Part shown: piece by piece, positions 3,145 to 32,725 of the stretch
How positions within the stretch are numbered: the stretch's first letter is position 1
Layout of the letters: each line of letters begins with the position of its first letter
DNA from: a virus
Length of the DNA stretch: 33,165 nt
Strand: one strand, 5' to 3'
Virus record (IMG/VR): IMGVR_UViG_3300036985_003581
Coordinates: 1-33,165 of that record
The notes under the pieces: model-generated
Databases searched by the model: none
Seen by the model: only the letters and a program-made list of their open reading frames with translations
What the model was told of the DNA's origin: nothing
Position numbers and translations under genes: made by a program

Positions 3145-3542
3145 TGGACTTATCAAAGTTTATTGGAATTCAGTATGAGTCTCACGGAAGAGAATATGAT
3201 GGATCTGATTGCTGGGGAATACTTTATTTATTCTACAAAGATATTTTTAACATAGAAATACCAAAATACGATATCGGGTATAAAGATGCAGATGATTTTG
3301 ATTCCGTTTCAGGGAAAATAAATTCCCATCTAAATGAATGGAAAGAAGTAAAATCACCTGTATTCGGTGATGTCGTTTTATTCAACATAGCTGGAAAAAC
3401 AGTTCACGCAGGGGTATATTTAAATGAATCAGAATTCCTCCATTCACTCTCAGGACACGATAGTGCCATTGACAGGCTTGACTCCTTTGCGTGGAGAAAA
3501 CGAATTGCAGCATTCTATAGATGGCCACGCAATATTTCGTGA
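3144..3542 (+). CDS. NlpC/P60 peptidase, tail tip
   Basis: This 132-residue protein is a short NlpC/P60 cysteine peptidase, the counterpart of the C-terminal domain of lambda gpK. The catalytic cysteine is Cys23 in SDCWG, the histidine is His88 in HAGVYL, and His100 in LHSLSG is the likely third residue. FGDVVLF before the histidine is typical. Tail-tip peptidases of this kind are thought to cut peptidoglycan peptides locally during DNA entry or to act in tail assembly. Its 3' end overlaps the gpJ-like gene in another frame. Confidence 0.88.
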   Translation: MDLSKFIGIQYESHGREYDGSDCWGILYLFYKDIFNIEIPKYDIGYKDADDFDSVSGKINSHLNEWKEVKSPVFGDVVLFNIAGKTVHAGVYLNESEFLHSLSGHDSAIDRLDSFAWRKRIAAFYRWPRNIS

Positions 3543-6500: not shown

Positions 6501-7248
6501 AAATACTTTATTTGATTATAAATTCTTACAGACTGTTCAAAATACAACTTGGGCAGGAACTAAAGATGGAATGGAAGTTTTTAGTTCAACGAGAATAAGA
6601 ACTTCATCAACAGGTGCAGCTGGAGAATACAATCAAGAAGGTTATTATTATTTTACAGATACAATAGATTTTGGATCTATCTATCCTGTGCGTCTTTCTA
6701 GTTCAATTGATGCTTATGGCTTTACATTAACTGAAGCTATTTCTAGTAATACAGGTTGGGATGCTTGGCTTGAAGTTAGAACTGGTACAGATATTATCAC
6801 ACTTTCTGATTGGGGAACTTTAAGCACTATTACAACTCTTGCTTATGGTGAAGGAGACTTTAATGAATGGAGAGCTTTCCACGCTGGTGACTTTACAGGT
6901 TATCTACTTCAATTTAGATTAAGAACTTCTAGTGATTTACCAACTATTGGTGTAGCTGTTAAATCTGCGTCAATTGAAATTACTGCACAAAAACGAGTTG
7001 ACAGTAATTATGATGTAGTTTCAGCTGTTGGGGGAAGCAGAATAAATTATGATGAAGAATTCCAGCAAAGACCAGCAATTTCTATTACGCAAGATTCTGT
7101 TCAAGCAGGTGACAGATATACTCTGACAAATCAAAATCTTCAAGGATTTGATATAGAGTTTTTTAATTCTTCTGGAACTTCTGTCTCTAGACAATTTGAT
7201 TGGGTTTCATCTGGTGTCGGAAGAAAAGTTATTTCCATCCCTTCTTAA
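3505..7248 (+). CDS. Tail tip / host specificity protein, gpJ-like
   Basis: This is the central tip protein that carries the receptor-facing end of the tail. It has a poly-Gly stretch, then two hydrophobic segments (LRIVALITIAIYAPQIA and FVAAGIALVGALAVNAIF) as in lambda gpI/gpJ-type N-termini, a long beta-rich body with SVTIDKVKSTPVQLFTPRN, a fibronectin type III-like unit (PPAAPIYLDLDLKNSSQLTL, then DIDGYEVRYSP), and a beta-rich C-terminus. The start is uncertain. I favour the TTG at 3505 because GGAG lies eight bases upstream and the overlap with the NlpC gene is then only 38 nt (1247 residues). An ATG at 3424 also has an AGGGG upstream and would give 1274 residues with a 119-nt overlap. 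Confidence 0.9.
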   Translation: MQHSIDGHAIFRDNPFAQIGNYTEIQYQEGASVDELVNFVCIDNSWLKNYIVVKIGTDYIPKEQWSRVKLKRNAPVQILVVPQGGGGGGKNVLRIVALITIAIYAPQIAASMGFTTTTAGVTALTTTGQFVAAGIALVGALAVNAIFPPPKLPNISGLGTGLSDSAVFGFSQVKNVTKPYSPIPRLYGRNKMVPNYAAKPFIQSSGDQQWIYLLFDFGYGPLQLTDLKIGENDISTYTGIEYYVYPYFNAGNTLQLYNKDVEQDAYSLKLLDAIYRTVTTTADTTQLVLDFQFPSGLNKVNTSTGDIGNFTTSFSVEVRKVGAASWSNYTTYSYSLDSQYASVSGVNGISCTAATAKPFFVTLTLSNLTADQYEIRCRRITPDSTEKYTYDDVYLASLRSIKNSSPINVTETHTIVEMKILATEQLNGVVDEFSAIATSILGRWNGTDWIYEPTRNPAWVYADILRGSASPNPIDDSRIDKTALLEWANWCDTPAANEPTKPKAQCDFIINGQSTAWQALKLVAATGDASPTVRSGKYSVTIDKVKSTPVQLFTPRNCLSFSANRMFHEQPDALRVQFVDPDEQWLPREIVVYDDGKNSSNSTKFEVLELTGITNYHQAWRIGRRALAQGRLRQEIYTITTGVENLLATRGDLVRLSYDVPKIGKGWGRISNISGQNITLDEKFTTISIGDYIRVRKNSDVQSDFAVTAVIDQYTVTVSGSLSSVAVGNLCVYGPVAQMSLDCLVKSVTPLSDLKASIELVPYAPAIYTAETDTIPAYNPLISTVDDLIPGEVGNLQASQYVTFINRYPYIAIALSWIGSPPGKIAVNYEVYQKQNGVWVIIGTTQDRFFYAYQNVRLVDESGNVVSLIGQLLEFSVVGVASNGSRIQPDQGAKVSITPTKDDVPPAAPIYLDLDLKNSSQLTLEWGHPSNNDIDGYEVRYSPLFSSLATFETATVAAKKVSYPSNSVTVPAKFGTYLVKTIDTSGNYSVIPAISITPTNTLFDYKFLQTVQNTTWAGTKDGMEVFSSTRIRTSSTGAAGEYNQEGYYYFTDTIDFGSIYPVRLSSSIDAYGFTLTEAISSNTGWDAWLEVRTGTDIITLSDWGTLSTITTLAYGEGDFNEWRAFHAGDFTGYLLQFRLRTSSDLPTIGVAVKSASIEITAQKRVDSNYDVVSAVGGSRINYDEEFQQRPAISITQDSVQAGDRYTLTNQNLQGFDIEFFNSSGTSVSRQFDWVSSGVGRKVISIPS

Positions 7249-7281
7249 ACAAGTTAAAATCAATAAAAATTTGGAGTAAAA

Positions 7282-7953
7282 ATGTCACAAGCAAACCTAG
7301 TTATTTCACCAACAACTGATACAGGTACGACATTATCAAATAAGCTAAATGCATGGCGTGACGCTGTTTACACTATGCAAAGAGGTGCAACTCGACCTGC
7401 TTATGCTGTCGCTGGATTTCAATGGCTTGATGAAGTTTCCGCATCTCAATGGGATTGGTTTTTATACGACGGAACTTCTGATATAAAAATAGCTGTATTT
7501 AATCCTACAGATCACACAATTACATTTGAAATTTCAACTTTGTCTTTAGCCAAATTACAAGCTGAAACCATAGCTGGTGTTGAAGTAAGATCAGCAAATA
7601 ATACACTTGTAGCAACTTTCGGAGCTGCTAATGCTCCTGATATTTATTGCGAGGGGAATGTTACTGCTTATTCAGATGAGAACTTAAAAACTAATTGGCG
7701 TTCTGTTAAAAGTAATTTCGTAGAAGAGTTATCTCAGGTTAAGTCTGGCATTTACGATCGTACAGACGTTGAATTGATTCAGGCTGGTGTAAGTGCTCAG
7801 TCATTACAAAAACTCTTGCCTGAAGTTGTTTTTAAAGATTTAACCGATAGACTGTCAGTTGCATATGGAAATGCAGCTCTTGTTGCTTCAGTTGAATTAG
7901 CAAAAGAGATTGTTGAGCTTAAAAAGCAAATTAAAGAGTTGAAGGATAGATAA
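7282..7953 (+). CDS. Tail fibre with S74 intramolecular chaperone
   Basis: The 223-residue protein ends in a peptidase S74 (endosialidase-type) intramolecular chaperone. The hallmark is YSDENLKTNW at residues 130-139: Ser131-Asp132 is the predicted self-cleavage site, followed by the conserved Leu-Lys. The C-terminal helix EIVELKKQIKELKD is a typical trimerisation coil. In this family the chaperone helps a trimeric beta-structured fibre fold and then cuts itself off. The mature part would be only about 130 residues, so this is a short fibre or a collar piece. GGAGTAAAA stands before the ATG. Confidence 0.85.
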   Translation: MSQANLVISPTTDTGTTLSNKLNAWRDAVYTMQRGATRPAYAVAGFQWLDEVSASQWDWFLYDGTSDIKIAVFNPTDHTITFEISTLSLAKLQAETIAGVEVRSANNTLVATFGAANAPDIYCEGNVTAYSDENLKTNWRSVKSNFVEELSQVKSGIYDRTDVELIQAGVSAQSLQKLLPEVVFKDLTDRLSVAYGNAALVASVELAKEIVELKKQIKELKDR

Positions 7954-9059
7954 TGACAACTCCTACAGGTACCATATCGCTTAATGATGTGAATGTGGAG
8001 CTTGGATTAGCAGGCACTACAAATATTTCTATGAACCAAGCTAATGTAAGAACACTTGCAGGAGTTGGCGGTTCAGGAACGATTATATCTATGAATGACC
8101 TGCGTGGTAAATCTAATCGTGTAACGATAAATTATACATTCTCTGCTAATACAGCAAATGCTGCATTAAACTTGTCAGCTTTAGGTGGTTATGTCTCTGG
8201 GAAATCAGACATTACAGTTACCATTAATAGTGGTGTTTATCTTTATGCAACTACAACCAGTGGATATGGCTTAAACCTTTCAGGAGCAACTACAGGTGAT
8301 ACAGTAACTATTGTTAATAACGGTTACATTATGGGGATGGGCGGTAATGGTTTTGATGGAAATGGTGCTTTGACAACGGACAGTCGAATGAATGGATTTC
8401 CTGGTGGTCCAGCTTTAAACCTAAATATTGGTGTAAACCCAACAATTAACAACACTGATGCTTCTGCTTATATTGGAGGAGGTGGTGGAGCTGGTGGTGG
8501 TATGCACATTGTTAGTTATGGAATTGTAACTACATGGCCTGGTGGTGGCGGTGCTGGTGGTGGAAAAGGCGGAAATAGTTATGGTTTAAATAGTAGTGGT
8601 GTTGGTGTAATTACAACAGGTGGTGCTGGTGGTGGTATTGGTTCATCAGGTTCAAATGGTCAGTATTTCGAAAATAGAGTTGGAATGGCAGCAGCTGGTG
8701 GGGGCGGAAGAGTATTCCCTTCAACATCAAGAACTCTAATAGGAACTGCAGTTGCTACCGTTTATGCTGGCCTTGGTGGCACAGGTGGTGGAACAGGAAC
8801 AGTATCAAACTCAAACGGTACAGCAAGTTCAATTGGTGGTGGTCCTAATCAAGCAGGTTCTGCTACTGGTGGTGCTGGTATTGGTAATTCAGGGGGAGGT
8901 GCTGGAGGATGGGGAGCATCAGGTTCTGTTGCGGTTCCTGTAAGTGCTACTTATTATGTGGGTTCAGGTGGTGCTGGCGGTAAAGCTGTAAATCTTAACG
9001 GAAGGTCTGTTACATGGGTATTAGGTAATACATCTAGAGTTTATGGGGCAATATCATGA
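7953..9059 (+). CDS. Glycine-rich receptor-binding adhesin, gp38-like
   Basis: The 368-residue product starts with GTISLNDVNVELGLAGTTNI, an N-terminal sequence common in phage fibre proteins, and from about residue 170 has repeated glycine-rich motifs (IGGGGGAGGG, PGGGGAGGGKGG, GGAGGGIGSSG, AAAGGGGRV, GLGGTGGGTG, GNSGGGAGGWG, GSGGAGG) separated by variable loops. This is the pattern of the polyglycine-II sandwich of T4-like gp38 adhesins, where the loops between Gly runs bind the receptor. Placement just after the S74 fibre and before the rest of the fibre block supports a receptor-binding role. It overlaps both neighbours by a few bases. Confidence 0.75.
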   Translation: MTTPTGTISLNDVNVELGLAGTTNISMNQANVRTLAGVGGSGTIISMNDLRGKSNRVTINYTFSANTANAALNLSALGGYVSGKSDITVTINSGVYLYATTTSGYGLNLSGATTGDTVTIVNNGYIMGMGGNGFDGNGALTTDSRMNGFPGGPALNLNIGVNPTINNTDASAYIGGGGGAGGGMHIVSYGIVTTWPGGGGAGGGKGGNSYGLNSSGVGVITTGGAGGGIGSSGSNGQYFENRVGMAAAGGGGRVFPSTSRTLIGTAVATVYAGLGGTGGGTGTVSNSNGTASSIGGGPNQAGSATGGAGIGNSGGGAGGWGASGSVAVPVSATYYVGSGGAGGKAVNLNGRSVTWVLGNTSRVYGAIS

Positions 9060-9301
9060 TAACAAAATATGCTGTTTTTAATCCTCTTACAGGACAATAC
9101 ACAAAAGTTGACACAAAAGAAGAATCCTATAATACTCTTGTTCAAAATGTTCTTGAAATGTATAAAGTAAATTCACACATACATACCATTACTGAATTAC
9201 AAGTAGATGAAAATGGAAATGAAACTTGGATAAGCACAGATAACGGTGCAGAATTGCCTGCTGAATATCTAGAAAAAATTAAATTAGGTATTAACGAGTG
9301 A
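9056..9301 (+). CDS. Small protein in fibre block, unknown
   Basis: An 81-residue acidic protein with no family I recognise. It starts at an ATG overlapping the previous stop (ATGA). Features are an N-terminal FNPLTGQYTKVDT and a C-terminal PAEYLEKIKLGINE. Its location behind the adhesin suggests a fibre-assembly partner, but nothing in the sequence proves this. From here to about 10470 the DNA looks more AT-rich than the tail genes, which fits a later insertion. Confidence 0.7.
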   Translation: MITKYAVFNPLTGQYTKVDTKEESYNTLVQNVLEMYKVNSHIHTITELQVDENGNETWISTDNGAELPAEYLEKIKLGINE

Positions 9302-9840
9302 AAAAATACACTTTGCCAAAATTAAATATCCCTGATACATGGACAAATGTACAAGTATTTTGTGATTGGTATATGGAAAACAATATGCCAATTAGGATTC
9401 CAATTGATGCGGAGATTTTTTGTAGTGATGATGCAACTGCAGTTTGTCTTTTTAGGCATGATCAATTTCAAGTAGAGCTTTATCTTGTTCATCCAGAGCC
9501 AATAGTTCAAGTACATGAACATCCATATGTAGAAGTAATAAAAATGAACATTTATGATGATGTTGCAATAGCTGAAAAAATTTTGCAAATGGGTCAATCT
9601 CATGGTGATGGTATGAGAAGAAAAGGCGATTTAAAAGGATTTCCACTGATAGCTTTTCAACATTGGAAATTTGATAAACCAACTACAGTAGCATCTGCAT
9701 GGAAAGGAAAGACAGTTGGGGTAAAACACGAATCATTAATAAAAAGATTTCACCCAAATGCATTAATTCTTAATGGGTATGCAGATATAACTAAACCAAG
9801 TAACTATTTAGAGGTTTTAAAAAATGGCACGAATTCCTGA
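9298..9840 (+). CDS. Cupin-like protein of unknown function
   Basis: A 180-residue protein starting at GTG 9298, which overlaps the previous stop as GTGA. The segment VHEHPYVEVIKM has the His-x-His-x3-Glu spacing of a cupin metal site, preceded by beta-strand-like sequence (DQFQVELYLVHPEP). A later HWKFDKPTTVASAWKGKTVGVKHESL could hold the second metal-binding His. If it is a cupin it might be a small dioxygenase or isomerase acting on a sugar or amino acid. Neighbours are a methyltransferase and fibre genes, so modification of a phage or host surface part is possible. The assignment is tentative. Confidence 0.6.
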   Translation: MKKYTLPKLNIPDTWTNVQVFCDWYMENNMPIRIPIDAEIFCSDDATAVCLFRHDQFQVELYLVHPEPIVQVHEHPYVEVIKMNIYDDVAIAEKILQMGQSHGDGMRRKGDLKGFPLIAFQHWKFDKPTTVASAWKGKTVGVKHESLIKRFHPNALILNGYADITKPSNYLEVLKNGTNS

Positions 9841-10477
9841 AACAGAGGTAATGAACGACCCAGCTAGTGTTGATGGATATACATTAGCTACACAATCTGG
9901 AGGATTAGCTAATCATTTTTTGCCGTTTTTAGAAAGCAACTCTGCTTATTTACAAATTGCAGATATTGGTTGTGGCAATGTTGGTTATGCTTCAGAAATA
10001 GAAAAAATTTATCCTAATGCTAATTTTTTTGGATATGATGCTTCAGAGTTAATGCTTGAAAAGGCAAAACAATTTGTTTCTCCAAATAGATATACCCTTA
10101 CACAAGTTACTCCAAGTGATATAGAAATTCCATCTAATACATTTGATATTGTTATTAGTTCATTATTATTGCATCAATACTTAGATCCAAGTGTAATGTG
10201 GGATACAATTAAAAGAATTGGAAAACCAGGATCAAAATTTTTTGTTTTTGATTTATTAAGAGTTGAAGATGAAACGATATGTAATGATATTGTTAAAAAC
10301 TTTTCACCTGAAATTTCTACATCTGAATTTCAGAAAGATTATTTCAATACATTAAGAGCTGCATTTACAATTGAAGAGATTCAGCAGCAATTATTAGATT
10401 TTGAATTAGTAGCAACAATTGAAAATAAAGAGCTATATCCTAATTGCTCAGTTGTTTATATTACAGGAACATTATGA
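9824..10477 (+). CDS. Class I SAM-dependent methyltransferase
   Basis: The 217-residue product is a small-molecule-type class I methyltransferase. Motif I is IADIGCGN with following Tyr-Ala, the acidic end of strand 2 is FFGYDAS, and motif IV is FDIVISSLLLHQYLDP, with FFVFDLLR later. The fold matches the Methyltransf_11/25 group. There are no DNA methylase signatures (no DPPY or catalytic PC), so DNA is not the obvious substrate. It overlaps the cupin-like gene by 17 nt and the next gene as ATGA. Position in the fibre block suggests modification of a fibre, glycan or receptor-related compound (inference). Confidence 0.82.
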   Translation: MARIPETEVMNDPASVDGYTLATQSGGLANHFLPFLESNSAYLQIADIGCGNVGYASEIEKIYPNANFFGYDASELMLEKAKQFVSPNRYTLTQVTPSDIEIPSNTFDIVISSLLLHQYLDPSVMWDTIKRIGKPGSKFFVFDLLRVEDETICNDIVKNFSPEISTSEFQKDYFNTLRAAFTIEEIQQQLLDFELVATIENKELYPNCSVVYITGTL

Positions 10478-10815
10478 CCACATATCAAAAAACTTACCCA
10501 TTCAAACGTGGTGATACATTTTCCGCCACTTGTACATATAAAGTCGCTGGAGTTCCTCAGCCACTTTCAACACAACAAATTGCATCTCAGTTAAGAACTG
10601 AAGCTGGTGTTCTTGTGCAAACACTTGTTGTTACAAAAGATCCAAACCAAACATTGAATGTCGGTAAGTTTACACTGACTCTTTCAGTCCCAACAAATTC
10701 ATCGACATTCCCAGCACCAGCTAATTTGTATTGCGACATTCAAGTAACAGATAACAATGTGGTAGTTTCAACATCAACATTTATAATCCCTGTTGTAGTG
10801 GATATTACAAGATGA
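10474..10815 (+). CDS. Ig-like structural protein in fibre block
   Basis: A 113-residue beta-rich protein. I start it at ATG 10474, which overlaps the methyltransferase stop (ATGA), rather than at the upstream in-frame ATG 10444 inside that gene. The sequence [14 protein letters not shown] with alternating hydrophobic strands resembles the small Ig-like or BppU-type N-terminal domains of baseplate and fibre proteins. It overlaps the collagen-like fibre gene by four bases, so it may form the base to which that fibre attaches. Confidence 0.72.
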
Positions 10816-13184
10816 CCACAACCATTGTCATCCAACCAGATTGGAAACAGCTTTCTGTTGATATAGATCCTAATTGGTCACCTGTATCTATTACACTGCA
10901 AGAAGTTTGGACTCCATATTCTTTAGATCTTATGCTTGGTGGTCCTGCTGGTCCAACTGGTCCGACAGGTGCTATTGGCCCAACTGGTCCGACAGGTGCT
11001 CAAGGTATTCAAGGGAATATTGGACAAACAGGTCCACAAGGTGTGCAAGGCATACAAGGTATTCAAGGAATACAAGGTCCAACTGGACCAACAGGTGCTC
11101 AAGGCATACAAGGTCCAACAGGACCAACAGGTGCTCAAGGAATACAAGGAATACAAGGAATACAAGGTCCAACTGGTCCAACAGGTTCTCAAGGAATACA
11201 GGGTATTCAAGGTATTCAAGGTCCAACAGGAGCAACAGGTCCAACAGGTGCTCAAGGAATACAAGGTATTCAAGGAATACAAGGTCCAACAGGACCAACA
11301 GGTGCTCAAGGAATACAGGGTATACAAGGTGAAATAGGTCCAACTGGTCCTCAAGGAATTCAAGGTGTACAAGGTATACAGGGCATTCAAGGTGCTACTG
11401 GTCCGACAGGTGCTCAAGGTATACAAGGCATTCAAGGTATTGAAGGTCCAACAGGACCAACAGGTGCTCAAGGTATACAAGGTATTCAAGGTCCAACAGG
11501 TGCCACTGGTGCTACAGGTGCAACTGGACCAACTGGAGCAACAGGTTTAACAGGTGCAACAGGACCAATAGGTGAAGTTGGACCAACAGGTGCATTAGGA
11601 CCAACAGGTGCTCAAGGCATACAAGGTATTCAGGGCATTCAAGGAATTCAAGGTGATCAGGGAATTCAAGGTGCAACAGGTCCAACTGGTGCCACAGGTT
11701 TAACAGGTGCGACAGGTCCACAAGGAATCCAAGGTATTCAAGGTCCAACAGGACCAACAGGTGCGCAAGGCATACAAGGTCCAACTGGACCAACAGGTGC
11801 GACAGGACCACAGGGTATTGACGGAGTATCTTCAAATCTATACAATTATCAAGCAAGTGAACCACAAACATCTGGTGTTCCGACTCACGGACATTTATAT
11901 TGGAATAACACAACTCAGATCTCTGCTACATCAATAACATTTAGCCATTTAACTCAAGTTGGAAATGATATTGATTTATTCTTATCAGTTTTAAAATCAG
12001 GTGATGGTTTAGTTCTTCAAGATCAAAACAATTCTAATAATTATCAAAGATGGATAGTTTCTGGAAATCCTACTGTTGTTTCCAATAGCTATGTTACAGT
12101 TCCTGTTTCTTTAGACACTTCAGCTGGAACTGGTACAACTGGATTTGCTAATAATCACGATCTTATTGCTGTTATTCAATCTATCGGTGTTGTTGGTCCA
12201 ACAGGTCCACAAGGTAACACTGGTCCAACAGGACCAACAGGTGCTCAAGGTATTCAAGGAGTTCAAGGTCCAACAGGACCAACAGGATCAATTGGCGATA
12301 TCGGTCCAACAGGACCAACAGGTGCTCAAGGAATACAAGGTATCCAAGGTATTCAAGGTCCAACAGGGCCAACAGGTGCTCAAGGAATACAAGGCATTCA
12401 AGGTGTGCAAGGTATTGAAGGTCCAACAGGTCCAACAGGTGCTCAAGGTATTCAAGGTCCAACAGGTCCAACAGGTGCTCAAGGCATACAAGGTATCCAA
12501 GGTATCCAAGGTATCCAAGGTCCAACAGGACCAACAGGTGCTCAAGGAATGCAAGGTATTCAAGGTCCAACAGGTCCAACTGGAGCAACAGGTTTAACAG
12601 GGGATACAGGTGCAATAGGTCCAACAGGACCAACAGGTGCTCAAGGTATTCAAGGTATTCAAGGAATACAAGGTGTCCAAGGTCCAACAGGTCCAACTGG
12701 AGCAACAGGTTTAACAGGAGATACAGGTCCAACAGGAGCAACAGGTGCTCAAGGAATTCAAGGCATTCAAGGAATACAAGGAATACAAGGTCCAACAGGA
12801 CCAACAGGTGCTACTGGTGCTGATTCAACTGTTGTAGGTCCAACAGGAGCAACAGGTGCTCAAGGAATACAAGGTATTCAAGGAATACAAGGTCCAACAG
12901 GACCAACAGGTGCTACTGGTGCTGCTTCAACTGTTGTAGGTCCAACTGGTCCTCAAGGTCCACAAGGAATACAAGGTATTCAAGGCAACACAGGTTCAAC
13001 AGGTGCTACTGGACCAACAGGTCCAACTGGTCCACAGCCAGCTGGCGTGTCATTAGGGTCTTGGACTATTACAGGTAATGGAAGTAAATTGTATTTTGCT
13101 TATGGTGGCTCTAATAAATTCAGCATTGATACTTCTGGAAATACTATTGCTGTTGCAAACGTAACTGCATACGGAACACCATAA
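10812..13184 (+). CDS. Collagen-like tail fibre protein
   Basis: The 790-residue protein has an N-terminal domain of about 43 residues (the probable attachment part), a Gly-X-Y region from residue 44 to about 338, a non-collagen domain of about 120 residues (339-461), a second Gly-X-Y region from 462 to about 742, and a 48-residue C-terminal cap. The triplets are mostly GPT, GAQ, GIQ and GAT, so the rod should be a trimeric collagen helix without hydroxyproline. Phage collagen-like proteins are usually fibres or receptor-binding rods. The long fibre follows the adhesin block and precedes a glycosyltransferase, so Thr residues in GPT triplets may be glycosylated (inference, as for Bacillus BclA). 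Confidence 0.9.
10941..13037 (+). repeat. Collagen-coding tandem repeats (9-nt units)
   Basis: The two Gly-X-Y regions are built from near-identical 9-nt units such as GGTATTCAA, GGTCCAACA and GGTGCTCAA in long runs, broken only by the unique segment 11826-12194. The repetition is so regular that all other frames stay open, giving false open frames on both strands. Such tracts readily change length by slippage or recombination, so fibre length may vary between relatives. Confidence 0.9.
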
Positions 13185-13214
13185 GATTTAACAACTTCAT
13201 GACAGAGAGAAAAT

Positions 13215-14258
13215 ATGAAGATAGCTGTATATGCAATAAATAAAAACGAGTCACATTTTATAAAAAGGTTCTGCGATTCTGCAAAGGACGCAGACCTTAT
13301 TATGATTGCTGATACTGGTTCTACAGATAGCAGTGTTGTAACTGCTAGACTAAATGGAGCAGAGGTTCACAACATTTGTATTTCTCCTTGGAGATTTGAT
13401 AAAGCTCGTGATGCTGCTCTTGCTTTACTTCCTAAAGATATTGACATCTGTATTAGTCTTGATATTGATGAAGTTCTAGAACCAGGATGGCGAGAAGAGA
13501 TAGAAAAACTCTGGAAAGATGGAGTTACAAGACTTCGTTATAAATTTGACTGGAGCTGTGGTATTGTTTTCCACGCAGAAAAGATTCACGCAAGACACGG
13601 ATATTTCTGGCATCACGCTTGTCATGAATACATTCACCCAGAGCCAAGAACTAAAGAGGTCTGGGCATCAACTGATAAATTACTCGTCAGACATTTACCA
13701 GATCCGACAAAGTCAAGAAGTCAATATCTAGATTTGCTTGCTGTTTCTGTACAGGAAGATCCTAATTGCATTAGAAATGCATTCTATTATGCAAGGGAAT
13801 TAGTTTTTAATTACAAATGGCAAGAAGGTGCTGAAGCATTAGAGTCTTATTTAAAACGACCAGACGCCATTTACAAATATGATCGTTGTTATGCTATGAG
13901 GTTGCTTGGTCAATGTTACTCTGAGCTCGGTTTAGATGGTTTGCAATGGTATAGGAAAGCATGTATTGAAGCTCCTGATACACGTGAGCCATGGATTGAT
14001 CTTTCTAAAGCAGCATACAATAATAATGATTGGCATGAGTGTCTTTATGCATCTATGAATGGGTTAAAAATTGTTCACAAATTAGAGATATATACAACAT
14101 CCGCTGAATCTTGGGATTATAGACTTAACGATTTCGCTGCACTTTCTGCATACAATTTAGGGCTGAAAGAAATTGCTATTGAACAAGGTTATTTAGCATT
14201 AAAATTAGATCCTGAAAATGAGAGATTACAAAAGAATTTAGAATTTTACAGGAGTTAG
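13215..14258 (+). CDS. GT-A glycosyltransferase with TPR-like tail
   Basis: The 347-residue product begins like a family 2 glycosyltransferase: INKNESHFIKRFCDSAKDAD, then IADTGSTDSS for the nucleotide site, and a DxD-type motif in SLDIDEVL near residues 78-85 for the metal. The second half (from about residue 180) is helical with TPR-like repeats (QCYSELGLDGLQWYRKACIE). It probably transfers a sugar from a nucleotide donor to a protein or glycan. Adjacent genes are the collagen-like fibre upstream and the lysis cassette downstream, making the fibre the most attractive substrate. An AGAGAG stretch stands before the ATG. Confidence 0.85.
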   Translation: MKIAVYAINKNESHFIKRFCDSAKDADLIMIADTGSTDSSVVTARLNGAEVHNICISPWRFDKARDAALALLPKDIDICISLDIDEVLEPGWREEIEKLWKDGVTRLRYKFDWSCGIVFHAEKIHARHGYFWHHACHEYIHPEPRTKEVWASTDKLLVRHLPDPTKSRSQYLDLLAVSVQEDPNCIRNAFYYARELVFNYKWQEGAEALESYLKRPDAIYKYDRCYAMRLLGQCYSELGLDGLQWYRKACIEAPDTREPWIDLSKAAYNNNDWHECLYASMNGLKIVHKLEIYTTSAESWDYRLNDFAALSAYNLGLKEIAIEQGYLALKLDPENERLQKNLEFYRS

Positions 14259-14260
14259 CG

Positions 14261-14482
14261 ATGAGCAGCATGCACCAAGATTATATGATAGATGAAACAG
14301 CAGCAAGATTAAATACTCACGAAGCTGTTTGTGCTCATAGATATGAAAATATAAATAATCAATTTATAGGTTCAAATGCTCGTCTTAAAAGAATAGAGAG
14401 CTGGCTTGTTATGGCTGCTGTTGGAGTCATTGGTGGTTTTGGTTCAATTATTATGATGCTGTTTCAATTATTGAATAGATAA
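14261..14482 (+). CDS. XhlA-like small membrane protein
   Basis: The 73-residue protein has a polar helical N-terminus (about 45 residues) and one C-terminal membrane helix (WLVMAAVGVIGGFGSIIMMLFQLL). This is the layout of XhlA/hemolysin-type proteins that help holins. It opens the lysis cassette and its stop overlaps the next ATG (TAATG). Confidence 0.7.
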   Translation: MSSMHQDYMIDETAARLNTHEAVCAHRYENINNQFIGSNARLKRIESWLVMAAVGVIGGFGSIIMMLFQLLNR

Positions 14483-15063
14483 TGAAAGACTTACTGCCAC
14501 AAATATTAGCTTATGTTAGTAGTCCATTTAGACTATTTGCTATTGTTATTATGGCAGTGCTGACCTTTACTGGTTACTTTATTTGGCAAAATCAAGGATT
14601 AATGCTTGACGCTTACACAAAGTCTAAACAATTACCTGCAATGAATGCAGCTCGGTATGACGATGCTGCCAAAGTAATATTTAAAGGTACAAATGCTGAC
14701 ATGGTTGTTATATTTTCAGTCAATCCATTGTTAGGCACTCGCATTGTTGAAAGAGCATATTTACCTGATAAACGATACAAAGAATTTGATGGTTACGATG
14801 TTGGTCTTTTTACAGCAAATCTTTCAAATAATAACGACATAATTAAACTAATGGCTAATGAAATACCATGTGGTGAATACAAAACAGCTCAATCAGAAAT
14901 AGGTTTATGGTACAAATCAATAGGAATAAATTACACTTGTCGAATCTCTGTTCCTCCTGATACAAATAAGTTTATCGGTCAAATTACAGTCGGTTGGAAA
15001 GAAGCTCCTGAAAGTCCACAAACCATGATAACAATAGCAAGTTCAATGTTAATGAGGAAATAA
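14482..15063 (+). CDS. Membrane-anchored protein in lysis cassette
   Basis: The 193-residue protein has one N-terminal membrane helix (residues about 17-36, LFAIVIMAVLTFTGYFIW) and a periplasmic-looking domain with two cysteines in its second half (in IPCGEY and NYTCRIS) that may form a disulfide. No known family is recognised. Its position between an XhlA-like protein and a holin suggests a role in lysis or its timing, for example an antiholin or signal sensor, but this is inference. Confidence 0.72.
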   Translation: MKDLLPQILAYVSSPFRLFAIVIMAVLTFTGYFIWQNQGLMLDAYTKSKQLPAMNAARYDDAAKVIFKGTNADMVVIFSVNPLLGTRIVERAYLPDKRYKEFDGYDVGLFTANLSNNNDIIKLMANEIPCGEYKTAQSEIGLWYKSIGINYTCRISVPPDTNKFIGQITVGWKEAPESPQTMITIASSMLMRK

Positions 15064-15064
15064 T

Positions 15065-15466
15065 ATGTTACCTATTGCAGCTCTATTAGATGTCGGAATG
15101 AAAGTGCTAGACAAATTTATCCCTGATCCTGAAGCCAAAGCAAAAGCTCAAGCAGAATTGATAAAAATGCAGCAAGAAGGAAAGATGGCTGAATTACAAG
15201 CAGACCAAGTGGCTATGCAAGAAACAAGCAAGCGTTGGGAAGCTGATATGAGTTCTGATTCTTGGTTGTCTAAGAATATCCGACCAATGGCACTTATAGC
15301 AATTTTTACAGCATACTTTGTATTTACTACAATGAGTGCATTTGGACTTAATGCCCAAGAGAGTTATGTTAATCTTCTTGGTCAATGGGGACAAATTGTA
15401 TTCCTTGCATATTTTGGTGGTCGCACAGTGGAAAAAGTTATGGAGATGAAAAATGCAGCTAAGTGA
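15065..15466 (+). CDS. Holin, GTA three-TM type
   Basis: The 133-residue product has the pattern of the GTA_holin_3TM family: an N-terminal hydrophobic helix followed by IPDPEAKAKAQAELIK, a Gln/Glu-rich amphipathic region, SWLSKNIRPMALIAIF leading into a second membrane helix, and a third helix near VFLAYFGGRTVEK. It should form membrane lesions that release the endolysin. It overlaps the endolysin gene by 14 bases in the next frame. Confidence 0.85.
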   Translation: MLPIAALLDVGMKVLDKFIPDPEAKAKAQAELIKMQQEGKMAELQADQVAMQETSKRWEADMSSDSWLSKNIRPMALIAIFTAYFVFTTMSAFGLNAQESYVNLLGQWGQIVFLAYFGGRTVEKVMEMKNAAK

Positions 15467-15893
15467 AAATTTTACTCTTTCTGAATTAACAGCTAGTGAA
15501 ACTGCCGCTCGTTTAAATTTAGATAACACAGCTCCTGATACTGCTATTGCAAATCTTGAAAGATTAGCAAGATTATTAGAAGATGTTAGGAAAATTCTTG
15601 GTAAGCCAGTAATGATCAATTCCGCTTATCGTGGTCCAGCTGTAAATGAAGCTGTGAAAGGTAAAAAGACAAGCCAGCATTTAATTGGTTGTGCTGCTGA
15701 TATCCGTGTTCCTGGAATGTCACCTGATGAAGTCTGCAGAGCTATTATTAAATCTGATATTCAGTTTGATCAGCTTATAAGAGAATATGATTCTTGGACT
15801 CACATTAGTGTTCCTAATGAAGCTGATGCAAATCCAAGGAATCAGACTTTAATTATTGATAAAGAAAGTCCAAATAGCAGGGCATTTATCTAG
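15453..15893 (+). CDS. Endolysin, peptidase M15
   Basis: The 146-residue protein is a zinc peptidase of family M15 (Peptidase_M15_3 type), which cuts peptide cross-links of peptidoglycan. The metal ligands are His76 and Asp83 in SQHLIGCAADI and His117 in WTHISV; the acidic residue in EYDSW is near the expected catalytic position. SAYRGPAVNEAV is the usual stretch upstream. It has no signal peptide, so it depends on the holin for export. It is the last rightward gene of this block, and its stop overlaps the end of the convergent leftward gene by eight bases. Confidence 0.92.
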   Translation: MQLSENFTLSELTASETAARLNLDNTAPDTAIANLERLARLLEDVRKILGKPVMINSAYRGPAVNEAVKGKKTSQHLIGCAADIRVPGMSPDEVCRAIIKSDIQFDQLIREYDSWTHISVPNEADANPRNQTLIIDKESPNSRAFI

Positions 15894-16203
15894 TTGAGTT
15901 GCATAAGTGCATTTTAGAAAATAGATAATTGTGATAATCTTTTAATGGTTTGATGCTTATAACTTTAGATCCTTGAACGATCTCGCCATTTACTCTTGAT
16001 CTTAATGCATACTTTTTAGGATTGCTTAATCCATTGCCACCTTTGACCATTAGAACTTTCATTCTAATCATGTCATTAATTGCATCATTTATAGCTCCTT
16101 GACCGATTGCAGATAGCTTTTTAAGTTCATTACGAGTGTACCAAACGAATTGACCTTCTGTCATAATTTCAATTAATTGTTCTTTTGGTTTAAATGTAGA
16201 CAT
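15886..16203 (-). CDS. Winged-helix-like DNA-binding protein
   Basis: A 105-residue basic protein. The start is set at ATG 16203, behind a good AAAGGAAA site and overlapping the upstream stop (TAATG); a TTG 21 bases earlier is less likely. Residues 20-70 (FVWYTRNELKKLSAIGQGAI, then IRMKVLMVKGGNGLSNPKKY) read as a winged helix: three helices and a beta wing. It could be a regulator at the end of the replication operon. No clear family name. Confidence 0.6.
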   Translation of the reverse strand: MSTFKPKEQLIEIMTEGQFVWYTRNELKKLSAIGQGAINDAINDMIRMKVLMVKGGNGLSNPKKYALRSRVNGEIVQGSKVISIKPLKDYHNYLFSKMHLCNSTR

Positions 16204-16379
16204 TACACTTTCCTTTCTGAACAATCATAAACTAAATGCTGGTGTCTAAATGATTTCATATGCTTACAATCGACTTCAACATTGTATAAAAAGAAAGCTG
16301 ATTGCAAAATCATACCAAAAAGTCCACCTAAAATAAATGCAATTCCCCATCTTCTAAATGCTTCAATCATATTTGTCAT
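16203..16379 (-). CDS. Small single-pass membrane protein
   Basis: A 58-residue protein with one membrane segment (WGIAFILGGLFGMILQSAFF) and a Cys/His-containing tail (DCKHMKSFRHQHLVYDC). The ATG at 16379 overlaps the polymerase stop (ATGA) and follows AAGGAAA, which fixes the start. Function unknown. Confidence 0.7.
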   Translation of the reverse strand: MTNMIEAFRRWGIAFILGGLFGMILQSAFFLYNVEVDCKHMKSFRHQHLVYDCSERKV

Positions 16380-19090
16380 TTTATTTCCTTCCATTTTTCA
16401 ACATAGATTTTACGGATACCATTACTTCCCTCTCGACCTTTAATCAATAGGGTTGCTCCTGCTGCTATTTCTTCTAACAATTTTCTTCCAATTCTTTCAA
16501 AGTTCTTTCTGTTTATAGTACACATTATAAGACCTTCATCATCACGCACAGTAAAGTTTATCCAATATCTATCAGGTACAACTTCACCTTCTTTTAACTG
16601 AATCCCAAACTTTACTAAGTTACCAGTCTCCATCATGTCACGAATGTTCTTCTCTAATAATTCAGCGAGGATAATTCTTTCATGGCCATCACCTTGAATT
16701 TCAGATGTCTTTGATAAAGGCATTGATATTTTATACTTTTCAGGATTGTCGTAATAATCTTTGTATTTCTTAGTGAATGGATAAATCTCTGCAAATTCAC
16801 TTTCACCAGATAATAATTTTTCAGACCTTGCAGACAATTTACCAGCTTCACGCTCTTTTATGATTTTCTCTGCTGTTTTTGGACCTACACCTTTTAATGC
16901 AGTCAAACCACCAATAATAGCACCATCTTGAACAGACCATGTAGCAAGACTCTTTTTAGGGTCTAGGGGTGTATATTTGTAACCTTCCTTGACTAGCTCA
17001 CGCAATAGCTGCATTGTACCATCTGCATCAGCAAATTTAATGTTTGCACAAGCAAATTCAAGAGGGTGATTAGCTTTAAGCCAAGCAGTCCAAGCAGTGA
17101 TTACAGAATAACTGGCTGAGTGTGCTTTCACGAAAGCATAAGACCCAGCGTGTAACATAGAGTTCCAAACCTTTTCAGCTGAAGCTCTATTTATATCTTG
17201 TTCTTCCGCACCTTTTAAGAAAGCATCGCGGAACTTATCGAAATATTCTTTTCCAAGTGATTTGCTCATAGCTCTACGAAGTGCAGTCAATTCTGGCCAA
17301 CCAAGTTTTCCCATGTCACGACCTAAGAACAAAATCTGCTCTTGGTAAACAACAACACCTTCTGTCTGCTGAGTCCAGTGTTTGTGAATCTCGTGATGAT
17401 ACTCTGGCTCTTCACGACCATCACGCACAGCGATATACTTAGAAGCACCACCTGATTGAAGTGGTCCAGGACGAGCCATAGCAGAAACAGCAACGATATC
17501 ATCAAAGCCACGCATGTTAATCTGACGCATTAATTGCCTTGCTGCATCTCCTTCAAGTTGGAATATCCCTGTCAGCTTTTGAGAGTTTAATAATTCATAG
17601 ACTTCAGTTGCATGAATATCTATATCTTCAACAGTCTTACCAATCATCTTTAAAGTATCAGCCACAATGTCTAAAGTTTTTAGGCCAAGAGCATCTAGCT
17701 TCATAAGGTTAAGAATCTCAGCATCCTTTTTATCTATCTGTGCTACTCCTTCTGAACTAACAGATGCATAATCAGTAATCGGTGTGGCACAAATAAGAAC
17801 TGCTGCTGCATGAACTGATGTATGGGATGCATGACCTTCTAGCTCTGCCATCTTATTAAGACCAGGATATTCAGCCATAAAGTCACGACCAGCTTTTAAA
17901 CTTTCAAGCGAGTCAAGCAAGCACAATCCAGCACGAGCATCTCCCGAGCTGCGTTCAATCATAGAGTCACGAATTTCATATAGCAAATGCTTCATGTGAC
18001 CTTCATATCTTGGCTGACCTTTGTGCAATCTAGCTATCTGAGCTAAAATGCTTTTTGGTTTAAGTCTGCTCACATTACCAAGACGACTGACATTCTGCTT
18101 TCCATATTTATTCTGCAAGTATTCAAAGACCTGCTCACGTTCAGTACCTTGAAAGTCTGTATCAATATCAGGCAAATCAATACGAGTAACGTCTACGAAT
18201 CGTTCAAACAATAAACCCTCTTTGATTGGGTCTAGTTCTGTAATGCCTAATAAATAGCAAACAAGTGAACCAGCAGAAGAGCCACGACCAGGACCAACAA
18301 GCATCCTAGTTTTTGCCCAACTGATTAAATCAGCGACCATTAAGAAATAAGACTGAAACTCTTTTTCAGAAATAACACCCAACTCGGTCTGTAATCTTTC
18401 CTCATATTCAGGCAGTAAGCCATTAGGAAATCTCTTTGGAATTCCTGCTCTAGTAAGTGCCTCAAGATCTCCTTCAAGCTGTAAATTCTTTGCTTGAGGA
18501 ATTTCAACACCTTTGCAAAGCTCATACACTTCATCCCAATAACTCTTAAATGGCATGTATTTAAAAAGATCTTTTTGGGTCATTAAATACTGAGGATGCA
18601 CTCCAAGTCTTACACCTAATAATTCAGCTGTCTCTTCATCTTGTGGTGTTGGGAACTTTACATCTGAGCACAACAATGGCTTTAATCCGCTATCAAGCGA
18701 TCTGTCCATTAAGATCTCATTGCCTAGATAAAGATCTGCATATTTATATTTAGCATTGATCCAGTCAGCTGGTGTGTTATAAATTAAAACAACCACGTCG
18801 TCTGAAAAGAACTGTCCAACCGAGACTTTATCAGTTTTGTTCATCTCTGACAAGCCAGATTGATTTCTGGCTATTAGCTTTATGGATAAGTCATAGCCAT
18901 CTATCTTAATCTCTTTAGCAAACATTGGCTCAATCTCTGCTGCAATGCACTCTTTGTAAAATTGCACGTGTCCAAAAGTATTTGCATCACAAATTGCGAG
19001 ATATTTAAATCCTAAGTCTTTTGCATTAGTAACAACTTTCTTAATTGGACCAAAACAATCTTTAAAACTATATTCAGTTCTAGTTAGCAT
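16376..19090 (-). CDS. DNA polymerase III alpha-type (C family), compact
   Basis: The 904-residue product is a bacterial replicase-type polymerase, shorter than E. coli DnaE (about 1160). GPGRGSSAGS at about 267-275 and the palm motif PDIDTDF at 307-313 (catalytic Asp310 and Asp312) are clear; the third Asp is Asp466 in MKLDALGLKTL. Thumb, fingers and helix-hairpin parts follow, including GGLTALKGVGPKTAEKI, and an OB-like C-terminus. The N-terminal PHP part starts only at TEYSF and lacks the first His-x-His metal motif, so PHP proofreading is doubtful; the separate exonuclease next door probably supplies it. The start overlaps that gene by 11 bases. No obvious beta-clamp motif was identified by eye. 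Confidence 0.93.
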   Translation of the reverse strand: MLTRTEYSFKDCFGPIKKVVTNAKDLGFKYLAICDANTFGHVQFYKECIAAEIEPMFAKEIKIDGYDLSIKLIARNQSGLSEMNKTDKVSVGQFFSDDVVVLIYNTPADWINAKYKYADLYLGNEILMDRSLDSGLKPLLCSDVKFPTPQDEETAELLGVRLGVHPQYLMTQKDLFKYMPFKSYWDEVYELCKGVEIPQAKNLQLEGDLEALTRAGIPKRFPNGLLPEYEERLQTELGVISEKEFQSYFLMVADLISWAKTRMLVGPGRGSSAGSLVCYLLGITELDPIKEGLLFERFVDVTRIDLPDIDTDFQGTEREQVFEYLQNKYGKQNVSRLGNVSRLKPKSILAQIARLHKGQPRYEGHMKHLLYEIRDSMIERSSGDARAGLCLLDSLESLKAGRDFMAEYPGLNKMAELEGHASHTSVHAAAVLICATPITDYASVSSEGVAQIDKKDAEILNLMKLDALGLKTLDIVADTLKMIGKTVEDIDIHATEVYELLNSQKLTGIFQLEGDAARQLMRQINMRGFDDIVAVSAMARPGPLQSGGASKYIAVRDGREEPEYHHEIHKHWTQQTEGVVVYQEQILFLGRDMGKLGWPELTALRRAMSKSLGKEYFDKFRDAFLKGAEEQDINRASAEKVWNSMLHAGSYAFVKAHSASYSVITAWTAWLKANHPLEFACANIKFADADGTMQLLRELVKEGYKYTPLDPKKSLATWSVQDGAIIGGLTALKGVGPKTAEKIIKEREAGKLSARSEKLLSGESEFAEIYPFTKKYKDYYDNPEKYKISMPLSKTSEIQGDGHERIILAELLEKNIRDMMETGNLVKFGIQLKEGEVVPDRYWINFTVRDDEGLIMCTINRKNFERIGRKLLEEIAAGATLLIKGREGSNGIRKIYVEKWKEIK

Positions 19091-24092: not shown

Positions 24093-24254
24093 AATTTTTA
24101 CCTTTATATTGGTCAGTCCATCGCTGACTTGCAAGAAATTATGCCTGAAATTTAGGAAATGGAAAGCACTTTTTGTTAAATATTTTTTATATAATAAATT
24201 CAACAAGTTATCAGATAATTTTACAACTTATCATTTTTAAGTAATAATCACCAC
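24093..24254. other. Divergent intergenic region
   Basis: This 162-bp AT-rich gap separates the leftward and rightward replication operons and should hold promoters for both. Several TATAAT-like strings occur (for example TATATAATAAATT near 24189), but none has a convincing -35 partner at 17 bases. GATAAT at 24216 and its neighbours could be a rightward -10 box. No inverted repeat of note and no copy of the 21-bp promoter element were seen. Confidence 0.55.
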
Positions 24255-30724: not shown

Positions 30725-30910
30725 TCAAATTAGACGCAAGCTGGTACGTGGTAAGCTGTTACGAATATCACTCTGGTGTAGCTCGTAACTGGCCACCATA
30801 CGTTTAGCGAAGTTAAGGGGTATATACAACTTGCTAGCTATAAACTCAACAGACCTGCCCTGCTTTACTAAGGTCTCAACGTCAATGGCTAAATCAGACA
30901 TAGCACTCAT
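30725..30910 (-). CDS. Small HTH-like protein
   Basis: A 61-residue protein with GRSVEFIASKLYIPLNFAKR, which fits a helix-turn-helix of the sigma-70 region 4 type. It is the last gene of the leftward operon and may be a regulator. ATG 30910 follows AGAAAGGTAATAAA. There is no ribozyme directly after it; 30564-30724 downstream is non-coding. Confidence 0.65.
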   Translation of the reverse strand: MSAMSDLAIDVETLVKQGRSVEFIASKLYIPLNFAKRMVASYELHQSDIRNSLPRTSLRLI

Positions 30911-31011
30911 TTTATTACCTTTCTAATGTTACCCTATGCTCTGCTATTAAAAACAGCTCCTAGGTGTGTTTAAACACGTTTCTAATGCACTATTTAGTAA
31001 CCCATTATTAA

Positions 31012-31067
31012 GGGTGTGTTTTACCTTTACCCCTATACTTAAATTTGGGTGTGTTTTACCTTTACCC
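31012..31067 (-). repeat. 21-bp direct repeat in operon spacer
   Basis: The 178-bp spacer 30911-31088 has no gene. It holds a perfect 21-bp direct repeat (31012-31032 and 31047-31067) whose minus strand reads GGGTAAAGGTAAAACACACC, a ribosome-site-like purine stretch without a start codon. It also holds the palindrome GTGTTTAAACAC (30966-30977) and CAGCTCCTAGGTG (30954-30966), a fragment similar to the ribozyme stem III in inverse orientation. Confidence 0.6.
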
Positions 31068-31088
31068 TAAAAAGGGGATTTACTAAAT

Positions 31089-31158
31089 ACCTAAGACCAG
31101 TTCCTAGGTGCGTACACCTAGGAGTTGGTTTCGCCCTTTAAGGGCTCATCAGTTAGGT
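31089..31158 (-). ncRNA. Hammerhead ribozyme, type I (copy 4)
   Basis: Minus-strand RNA: stem I ACCUAA / UUAGGU, core CUGAUGA (31146-31152), stem II GCCCU-UAA-AGGGC (31133-31145), GAAA, stem III of about 13 pairs (31096-31129) with loop UACG and one internal loop, then GUC. All invariant bases are present. Cleavage is predicted after the C at 31095. Stem I starts on the last base of the UAA stop of the 72-residue gene, so ribosomes ending there would touch it. The RNA after the cut carries the long spacer to the last gene. Confidence 0.93.
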
Positions 31159-31376
31159 TATACGCTAAACGGCAAATTTGAAATTGAATCAACTCTACTT
31201 ACAACTTCTAAAGTTTCAAGGTTATAAACCTCGCAAACGTCACCATCAATTATTATTAAAAGGTCACCACTTTCAGCTATAAAAGGAACTGGACTTTCAA
31301 CCCCAGCAAAACCTTCAAAATCAAATTTATCAAATTGGCGGTACTGTAAGCTTTTTAAGAATTTACGAGTTATCAT
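31158..31376 (-). CDS. Small protein, ribozyme-flanked
   Basis: A 72-residue beta-rich protein (MITRKFLKSLQYRQFDKFDF and DLLIIIDGDVCEVYNLETLE). No family recognised. Preceded by the constant leader and AAAGGTAAAAATC before the ATG, and followed by a ribozyme whose stem I begins in its stop codon. Confidence 0.72.
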   Translation of the reverse strand: MITRKFLKSLQYRQFDKFDFEGFAGVESPVPFIAESGDLLIIIDGDVCEVYNLETLEVVSRVDSISNLPFSV

Positions 31377-31407
31377 GATTTTTACCTTTATAAAGTTTTT
31401 TAAATTT

Positions 31408-31477
31408 ACCTAAGACCAGTTCCTAGGTGCGTACACCTAGGAGTTGGTTTCGCCCTTTAAGGGCTCATCAGTTAGGT
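31408..31477 (-). ncRNA. Hammerhead ribozyme, type I (copy 3)
   Basis: Identical to copy 4 across all 70 positions: stem I ACCUAA/UUAGGU (31472-31477, 31408-31413), CUGAUGA (31465-31471), stem II (31452-31464), GAAA, stem III (31415-31448), GUC. The predicted cut is after the C at 31414. It begins four nt after the UAG stop of the 61-residue gene. The 3' product starts UUAGGUAAAUUUAAAAAAC and leads directly to the ribosome site of the 72-residue gene. Confidence 0.93.
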
Positions 31478-31481
31478 TGAA

Positions 31482-31667
31482 CTATTCAAACCAATTTATT
31501 TTTATACCCTTTTCAAAACAGGCTTCAATTACCAACTGCTCAAGATTTTCCCATTTGCTACTGCTTATAGAAACTTCTAGGGTATCAGCTAATAAAATAG
31601 CTTTATCCCTAGTGTTGGCGTATTCATTTAAAAGTTCGTTGGTTATATACTTTTCAAGCGAGTCCAT
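31482..31667 (-). CDS. Small protein, ribozyme-flanked
   Basis: A 61-residue acidic helical protein, MDSLEKYITNELLNEYANTR followed by DKAILLADTLEVSISSSKWE. Function unknown. The ATG at 31667 follows AAAGGTAAAAATT and a leader produced by the upstream ribozyme cut. Confidence 0.72.
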   Translation of the reverse strand: MDSLEKYITNELLNEYANTRDKAILLADTLEVSISSSKWENLEQLVIEACFEKGIKINWFE

Positions 31668-31698
31668 AATTTTTACCTTTATAAAGTTATTTGGTACT

Positions 31699-31768
31699 AC
31701 CTAAGACCAACTTCTAGGGCTGCGCACCTAGGAGCTGGTTTCGCCCAATTAGGGCTCATCAGTTAGGT
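31699..31768 (-). ncRNA. Hammerhead ribozyme, type I (copy 2)
   Basis: Stem I ACCUAA/UUAGGU (31763-31768, 31699-31704), CUGAUGA (31756-31762), stem II GCCC-UAAUU-GGGC (31743-31755), GAAA, stem III (31706-31739), GUC; cut after the C at 31705. Stem III differs from copies 3 and 4 but gains G-U and C-G pairs where they have mismatches and loses one pair elsewhere. Stem I starts on the last base of the UAA stop of the 82-residue gene. Confidence 0.92.
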
Positions 31769-32016
31769 TATAAATACATTTCCGTGTTAGTACCAAGCTC
31801 AAACCAAATATCAGCTTGAGCTTGCTCAAATAAATTTTCAATTGAATGGCCACCAGAATATGTACCTCTTAATAAACTTACCCTGCCTAAACAAATTGAG
31901 CGGAATTTATAAATATCAACTATTTTATTTTTTAAATACAACTCAATAATTTCAGCTTTTAATTCAGCTTTATATTCGTTCAATAAGTCATCAGCTTCAC
32001 TTTTATAATTACGCAT
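31768..32016 (-). CDS. Small helical protein, ribozyme-flanked
   Basis: An 82-residue largely helical protein (MRNYKSEADDLLNEYKAELK, later HSIENLFEQAQADIWFELG). No family recognised. It starts at 32016 behind AAAGGTAAAAATT and stops in the first base of the ribozyme. Confidence 0.72.
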   Translation of the reverse strand: MRNYKSEADDLLNEYKAELKAEIIELYLKNKIVDIYKFRSICLGRVSLLRGTYSGGHSIENLFEQAQADIWFELGTNTEMYL

Positions 32017-32047
32017 AATTTTTACCTTTATAAAGTTTTTTAAATTT
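32017..32047 (-). promoter_or_regulatory. Constant ribozyme-to-gene leader with RBS
   Basis: The RNA after each cut reads UUAGGUAAAUUUAAAAAACU then UUAUAAAGGUAAAAAUU and the AUG. It is almost identical at 31377-31407 and, with some changes, at 31668-31698. ACUUU-AUA-AAGGU can form a small hairpin hiding the Shine-Dalgarno AAAGGU. The leader makes each ribozyme, leader and gene a repeated cassette. Confidence 0.7.
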
Positions 32048-32098
32048 ACCTAAGACCAGCTCACGCTGGTTTCGCCCATTAGGGCTCATCAGTTAGGT
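32048..32098 (-). ncRNA. Hammerhead ribozyme, type I, short (copy 1)
   Basis: A minimal 51-nt version: stem I ACCUAA/UUAGGU (32093-32098, 32048-32053), CUGAUGA (32086-32092), stem II GCCC-UAAU-GGGC (32074-32085), GAAA, stem III ACCAGC-GUGA-GCUGGU (32055-32070), a six-pair stem with a GNRA tetraloop, then GUC. The cut is after the C at 32054. It starts on the last base of the UAA stop of the 60-residue gene. Being shorter yet complete, it is good evidence that the fold itself is kept. Confidence 0.93.
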
Positions 32099-32280
32099 TA
32101 TAAAAAATTTACACCAATATAGACCTTTTCAATTTCAATAGTTTCATCAAAATTATCAGGTGCAATCCTTGAGTTACAAACCTCAGCGTAAATTTCAGCC
32201 TGCTCTAAAGTTTCAAAAGCATAAAGGTTTTTGTAACCATCAACTGGGCCAAATTTTTTAACTATGTAAACTTTTTTCAT
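32098..32280 (-). CDS. Small protein upstream of ribozyme
   Basis: A 60-residue protein (MKKVYIVKKFGPVDGYKNLY and AFETLEQAEIYAEVCNSRIA). No family recognised. ATG 32280 follows AAAAAGGAAATT. No ribozyme lies before it; its transcript would start with the gene upstream. Confidence 0.72.
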   Translation of the reverse strand: MKKVYIVKKFGPVDGYKNLYAFETLEQAEIYAEVCNSRIAPDNFDETIEIEKVYIGVNFL

Positions 32281-32297: not shown

Positions 32298-32498
32298 TTA
32301 GTAAGTAAAACCAGTGAAAACTGGCTTGTTTGCTTTGATGAAAATTTCACGGCAAATATCATCACAATCAATACAACTAAAAGTTTTACTAGCACGGTCG
32401 TAATGGCCACGTTTGTAAACTGTTTTAGCAGTTGGGGTACGTTTAAAGAACTCACCTTTAGGCAAGTCCCTAAGTGTTGTAATAAAAAGCTGTTCCAT
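32298..32498 (-). CDS. Conserved small phage protein (KTVYKRGHYDR type)
   Basis: A 66-residue protein with DLPKGEFFKRTPTAKTVYKR, GHYDRASKTFSCIDCDD and KPVFTGFTY. This resembles a small protein found across phages and plasmids whose function is unknown. It is first in the leftward small-gene operon; AGAAAGGTAAAAATC precedes ATG 32498, and the shared promoter element is about 45 nt upstream. Confidence 0.75.
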   Translation of the reverse strand: MEQLFITTLRDLPKGEFFKRTPTAKTVYKRGHYDRASKTFSCIDCDDICREIFIKANKPVFTGFTY

Positions 32499-32592: not shown

Positions 32593-32725
32593 TTAATACT
32601 ATATAAATCAAGGACTTATAAGCATATCTCTTGGCCCACCATTTCAATGGGTTTGCGGTGCGTTGTTAGGTCGTTTTTAGGGGTGTTTTTGGGGTTAGTT
32701 AGTACCCTAAAAAGGGCTCAATTTT

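Follow-up and report, generated by a model that had tools for sequence, protein, structure and literature searches.

Four tandem type I hammerhead ribozymes at consecutive gene ends of a phage small-gene operon and their predicted role in cutting its mRNA

The window analysed here, meaning the whole stretch of DNA, is a 33,165-base IMG/VR virus record (positions 1–33,165 of IMGVR_UViG_3300036985_003581). Near its right end, six small ORFs lie in a row on the minus strand in the order A-B-C-D-E-F (Table 1). None of the six deduced proteins scored above the family cut-offs in family searches, no convincing mutual similarity was detected when they were compared with each other, and PADLOC gave no match. 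A DNA-level search revealed no homologues in annotated phages. Queries with the polymerase and tail genes retrieved near-identical contigs, but these cover only window positions 1–17943, and queries with the primase, the helicase and the leader pattern (see below) yielded no relatives covering the operon. The promoter scan gave no clear excess over shuffles, and the few terminator-like sites found in the window include none located after a ribozyme. Elsewhere in the window, the tail-gene region (10812–13184) encodes a long collagen-like protein made up of GPT/GIQ repeats, and the DNA there is highly repetitive.

Table 1. Genes, hammerhead ribozymes (HH) and leaders of the operon, in window coordinates
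Feature	Position	Strand	Description
Gene A	32298..32498	-	66 aa; ORF; no family match; no ribozyme before gene B
Gene B	32098..32280	-	60 aa; weak DUF7336-like match, below cut-off; UAA stop has 1 base in common with HH1 stem I
HH1	32048..32098	-	type I, short stem III with GUGA loop; predicted cut after C 32054; R1 67.1 bits, E 1e-15; MFE z -3.8
Gene C piece leader	32017..32053	-	37 nt, 3' of predicted HH1 cut; AAAGG Shine-Dalgarno-like site
Gene C	31768..32016	-	82 aa; no family match; UAA stop has 1 base in common with HH2 stem I
HH2	31699..31768	-	type I, long stem III; predicted cut after C 31705; R1 55.8 bits, E 1.2e-12
Gene D piece leader	31668..31704	-	37 nt, 3' of predicted HH2 cut
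Gene D	31482..31667	-	61 aa; no family match; UAG stop 4 nt ahead of HH3
HH3	31408..31477	-	type I, long stem III; predicted cut after C 31414; R1 56.4 bits, E 8.1e-13
Gene E piece leader	31377..31413	-	37 nt, 3' of predicted HH3 cut; nearly identical to gene C leader
Gene E	31158..31376	-	72 aa; no family match; UAA stop has 1 base in common with HH4 stem I
HH4	31089..31158	-	type I, long stem III; predicted cut after C 31095; R1 53.0 bits, E 6.6e-12
Gene F piece leader	30911..31094	-	184 nt, 3' of predicted HH4 cut; two repeated GGGTAAAGGTAAAACACACCC motifs
Gene F	30725..30910	-	61 aa; no family match; last in predicted operon; no ribozyme after it

One hammerhead ribozyme follows each of genes B, C, D and E (HH1 to HH4, respectively), in sense with the operon; the descriptor scan found none at the junction of genes A and B or downstream of F. 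All four have the pattern ACCUAA-CUGAUGA-GCCC..GGGC-GAAA-CCA..UGG-UC/UUAGGU (the slash marks the predicted cut), with an open stem I of 6 bp (ACCUAA/UUAGGU) and stem II formed by GCCC/GGGC. The invariant core (CUGANGA and GAAA) is present in every copy, as is the NUH cleavage triplet between stems III and I, which is GUC throughout, and the three-helix arrangement around the core, stem I being the open one, was recovered in 4/4 copies by the descriptor scan, by MFE folds and by a covariance model (R1, see below). Stem I is identical and stem II nearly so across the four copies, and HH3 and HH4 are 100% identical over the 70-nt ribozyme, both carrying a 2x2 mismatch in stem III. When excised, each copy has the hammerhead as its MFE fold (z -3.3 to -4.5). 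These data bear out the first-pass annotation of the locus, which had proposed four complete sense-strand type I hammerheads at these places, with all invariant core bases, three stems and an open stem I, and had placed the predicted cleavage positions correctly with respect to the sequence. It had also put each hammerhead 0–4 nt after a stop codon, which is the case for gene D, with its gap of 4 nt, but not for genes B, C and E, in which the last A of the UAA stop is itself the first base of stem I. On sequence grounds, the four elements belong to a sub-class of type I hammerheads that is frequent in tailed phages; its traits are a 6-bp open stem I with an A on either side and a stem II of 4 bp carrying a U-N-A-type loop.

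The descriptor, comprising the core and three stems, had exactly four matches in the 33 kb window, and 100 dinucleotide shuffles gave no match. In sampled viral contigs it gave 193 forward matches among those listed (window included), against none in 1.28 Mb of reversed control, and 127/145 of the listed matches to a core-only pattern could be extended to full hammerheads. Model R1 was trained on 30 type I hammerheads from other phage contigs with the window excluded; pairing in this descriptor-selected training set is partly by construction, but both strands of every stem vary in sequence. In the window it detected the four copies and nothing else (53–67 bits, E 1e-15 to 7e-12). A search with the Rfam models, as the first-pass annotation had advised, gave a divided result: a permissive search of the region returned hammerhead-clan matches (E 3e-4 to 0.02), but no family was reached by the window copies at the gathering cut-offs. 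Their best scores were 24.5 against a gathering value of 34 for RF00163 (Hammerhead_1), 28 against 52 for RF02275 (Hammerhead_HH9) and 29.9 against 48.5 for RF00008 (Hammerhead_3), so that they resemble these families in the core and three-stem fold and differ in score. Since six control contigs rich in canonical phage type I hammerheads likewise gave no match at gathering with Rfam release 15, the cut-offs reflect the reach of the models and not an absence of the fold in the window copies. Rfam thus has a blind spot, and phage arrays of this kind are hidden from routine annotation.

The leaders 3' of HH1, HH2 and HH3 are alike and bear AAAGGTAAAAATYATG; in each case the next ORF starts 37 nt past the predicted cut, with a ribosome-binding-like site ahead of it. 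Together, ribozyme and leader form a unit of about 105 nt that is repeated between unrelated genes. The AAAGGTAAAAATYATG leader was also observed at 24105 and 32511 (minus strand), in front of genes lacking a ribozyme, and is therefore a genome-wide habit of this phage. A further repeat, TACCCTAAAAAGGG (CCCTTTTTAGGGTA on the minus strand), is located at 31063–31076 and 32703–32716, upstream of genes F and A, and possibly represents control sites. Ahead of gene F, a stretch of 22 nt (30948–30969, minus strand) matches the 3' half of HH3/HH4 at 18/22 positions; as a decayed fifth hammerhead it is a weak candidate, with 33–42 of 2000 shuffles being equally good.

Clustered hammerheads in phages are not without precedent. 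Perreault et al. (2011; PMC3088659) described clusters in prophages in which hammerheads flank single genes or short blocks of genes. All three arrangements tested, from Agrobacterium tumefaciens, Clostridium scindens and Azorhizobium caulinodans, cleaved in vitro, the triple array of A. tumefaciens also doing so in E. coli, and processing of long phage transcripts to gene-length mRNAs was proposed as their role (PMC3088659). Those clusters resemble the window array in having several same-sense tandem hammerheads that flank single phage genes and in the role proposed, whereas the window array comes from a different phage, has four type I copies that are almost identical, one behind each of four successive genes, has stops overlapping stem I, and has cleavage that is predicted. 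In addition, many same-type, same-strand arrays occur among the matches listed in viral contigs, with copy numbers of 4, 5, 6, 7, 8 and 9 all represented; the sample is made up of stretches chosen for hammerhead patterns, two of which duplicate contigs already present in it. The claim that four hammerheads in tandem had no known counterpart therefore has to be given up, and the window array is a sound further example of a kind of arrangement that was known from phages before and is common among them.

Two other arrays are worth noting: 1) IMGVR_UViG_3300006924_000032 carries nine type I copies (4445–8721), which lie at gene ends and are separated by one gene or by several. It is similar to the window array in type, in the use of one strand, in its position at gene ends of a small-gene operon, in a common stem I and in stops that enter the ribozyme (most of its copies have a stop running into them), and differs in the larger number of copies and in stems II and III; no relation between the genes was detected in a shallow search. 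2) Streptomyces phage R4 (NC_019414), a cultured phage, has three tandem copies near one end, which also occupy gaps between small genes but are of type II, with stem II open, in contrast to the type I copies of the window.

We consider it likely that the four type I hammerheads cut the minus-strand polycistronic mRNA A-F into the pieces A-B, C, D, E and F. We infer cleavage, the chemistry of the ends and an effect on expression as follows. Genes A to F would be transcribed together from the minus strand, with every ribozyme folding locally and co-transcriptionally and cleaving 3' of its C17, at predicted distances of 349, 291 and 319 nt from cut to cut. The products would be a bicistronic A-B message, single messages for C, D and E, and an F message with a leader of 184 nt. 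The first four pieces would end about 44–67 nt past their stop codons with the stem II/III body of the ribozyme and a 2',3'-cyclic phosphate, and the later pieces would start with a 5'-OH, followed by a leader and ribosome-binding site of their own; the end chemistry of hammerhead cleavage is established. Cutting would probably uncouple the expression and decay of adjacent genes. When the full 1.8-kb transcript is folded at equilibrium, all four copies retain stem II, but HH2, HH3 and HH4 lose stem I because they pair elsewhere along the RNA, in part with each other's near-identical arms; efficient cutting would thus need each ribozyme to fold locally before the next copy is made. Cutting of the mRNA, for which the prophage clusters offer an experimental precedent (PMC3088659) and which had been suggested to leave single-gene pieces, is the best explanation of the array, except that the first piece would be bicistronic. 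A 2017 review calls it an open question what hammerheads do biologically in bacteria and phages (PMC6155905). With near-identical ribozymes at consecutive gene ends, the mRNA-processing idea becomes directly testable within one operon, and the survey adds two further testable points, the ribozyme-fused stop codons and the blind spot of Rfam for arrays.

The position of stop codons was surveyed in 91 unique type I hammerheads from outside the window, each with a 6-bp stem I and all among the matches listed, the stop being that of the longest upstream ORF. An upstream stop was found within -13 to +4 nt of stem I in 54/91, a proportion (59%) that is approximate because the upstream genes are mechanical, uncurated ORFs, versus 5% in each of two controls, the opposite strand and shifted positions. 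In this set, stop positions peaked at 0, -1, -6 and -10 relative to stem I, the peak types being a UAA just ahead of stem I, a UAG using the first G of stem I, a UAA made of the final three bases of stem I, and a stop supplied by U4-G5-A6 of the core. An ORF starts at most 80 nt downstream in 60/91 of these listed hammerheads. Copies of type II likewise abut stops. The fusion of stop and ribozyme in phage type I hammerheads is new at the family level, and 3/4 window copies have it; neither the fusion nor the Rfam blind spot is mentioned in the accessible papers that were consulted, most subscription papers lying outside this set. It could have arisen through compactness, or the fusion could mark a genuine link with translation termination.

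With the stop codon merged into stem I and the core in this way, the ribozyme would be covered by a ribosome that is terminating. This might block folding, so that the RNA would be cut only where ribosomes are not actively finishing, or after their release; the array would then serve to monitor or adjust the translation of each gene separately. Clustering of stops at exact positions of the ribozyme, with use of A(-1), G1, stem I bases and core bases, is in keeping with such gating, as is the base common to stop and ribozyme in three of the four window copies. In type III hammerheads, where a different stem is open, the stop typically lies 19–34 nt upstream instead. However, the ribozyme itself supplies stops in two of three frames, and genes running into it end there, so that genome compactness may account for the fusion. 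HH3, moreover, lies 4 nt from its stop, and the argument for gating is drawn from sequence. We therefore regard gating of the window array by translation as unlikely, and the broader proposal, that phage type I hammerheads would be stop-site-embedded, ribosome-gated, gene-by-gene switches, found widely among tailed phages and overlooked by routine RNA annotation, is put forward as a tentative one that we would not favour.

A different view would make the ribozyme plus leader a spreading or recombining cassette, the copies of which are kept mainly because identical repeats between genes let small genes shuffle, with cutting being secondary. Gene shuffling has been proposed for intergenic cassettes of phages, namely the mobile regulatory cassettes of T4-type phages. 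The identity of HH3 and HH4, the units of about 105 nt between unrelated genes, the stem I common to all four copies and the possible 3' remnant before gene F would fit this view, but a selfish repeat need not keep a full catalytic core, nor be placed only in sense and directly after stops. Moreover, in the arrays of other phages the copies differ in stems II and III, yet pairing is preserved. The cassette explanation is accordingly quite improbable to us. Even less can be said for stable 3' hairpins or RNase III/RNase E processing sites with an inactive hammerhead, which the long stem III hairpins of HH2 to HH4 might suggest but which we hold to be very improbable, given that every invariant core base is kept in 4/4 copies, that no T-run terminator lies 3' of the hammerheads and that stem III of HH1 is short.

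Among the matches listed, hammerheads with a loop II starting with U have A as the 5' flank of stem I (A(-1)) in 66/68 and as the 3' flank (A(+1)) in 65/68; those with other loop II sequences have U(-1) in 14/18 and U(+1) in 13/18. The flanking bases thus belong to the ribozyme in phage type I hammerheads, and the window copies fall into the class with a loop II U and flanking A. A tertiary contact between loop II and stem I is needed for fast hammerhead cleavage. The correlation of loop II with the flanks suggests such a contact, to which pattern shared ancestry could contribute.

A few further observations were made on hammerheads outside the window. In phage R4, gp79 and gp77 are annotated as starting at the AUG within a hammerhead CUGAUGA core. 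As a general rule, supply of start codons by the type II core was discarded, since 74/179 gave open frames of at least 40 aa compared with 47% of control AUGs. Agrobacterium phage OLIVR1 has a single type I copy, and a class-pattern search of bacterial genomes gave one match, of type III, in a Flavobacteriales MAG contig. Hammerheads are unmentioned in the paper on HDV-like theta ribozymes. A distinct hammerhead class, with CTGTCT/AGACAG as stem I followed by CGA, adjoins tRNA-like sequence in several viral contigs.
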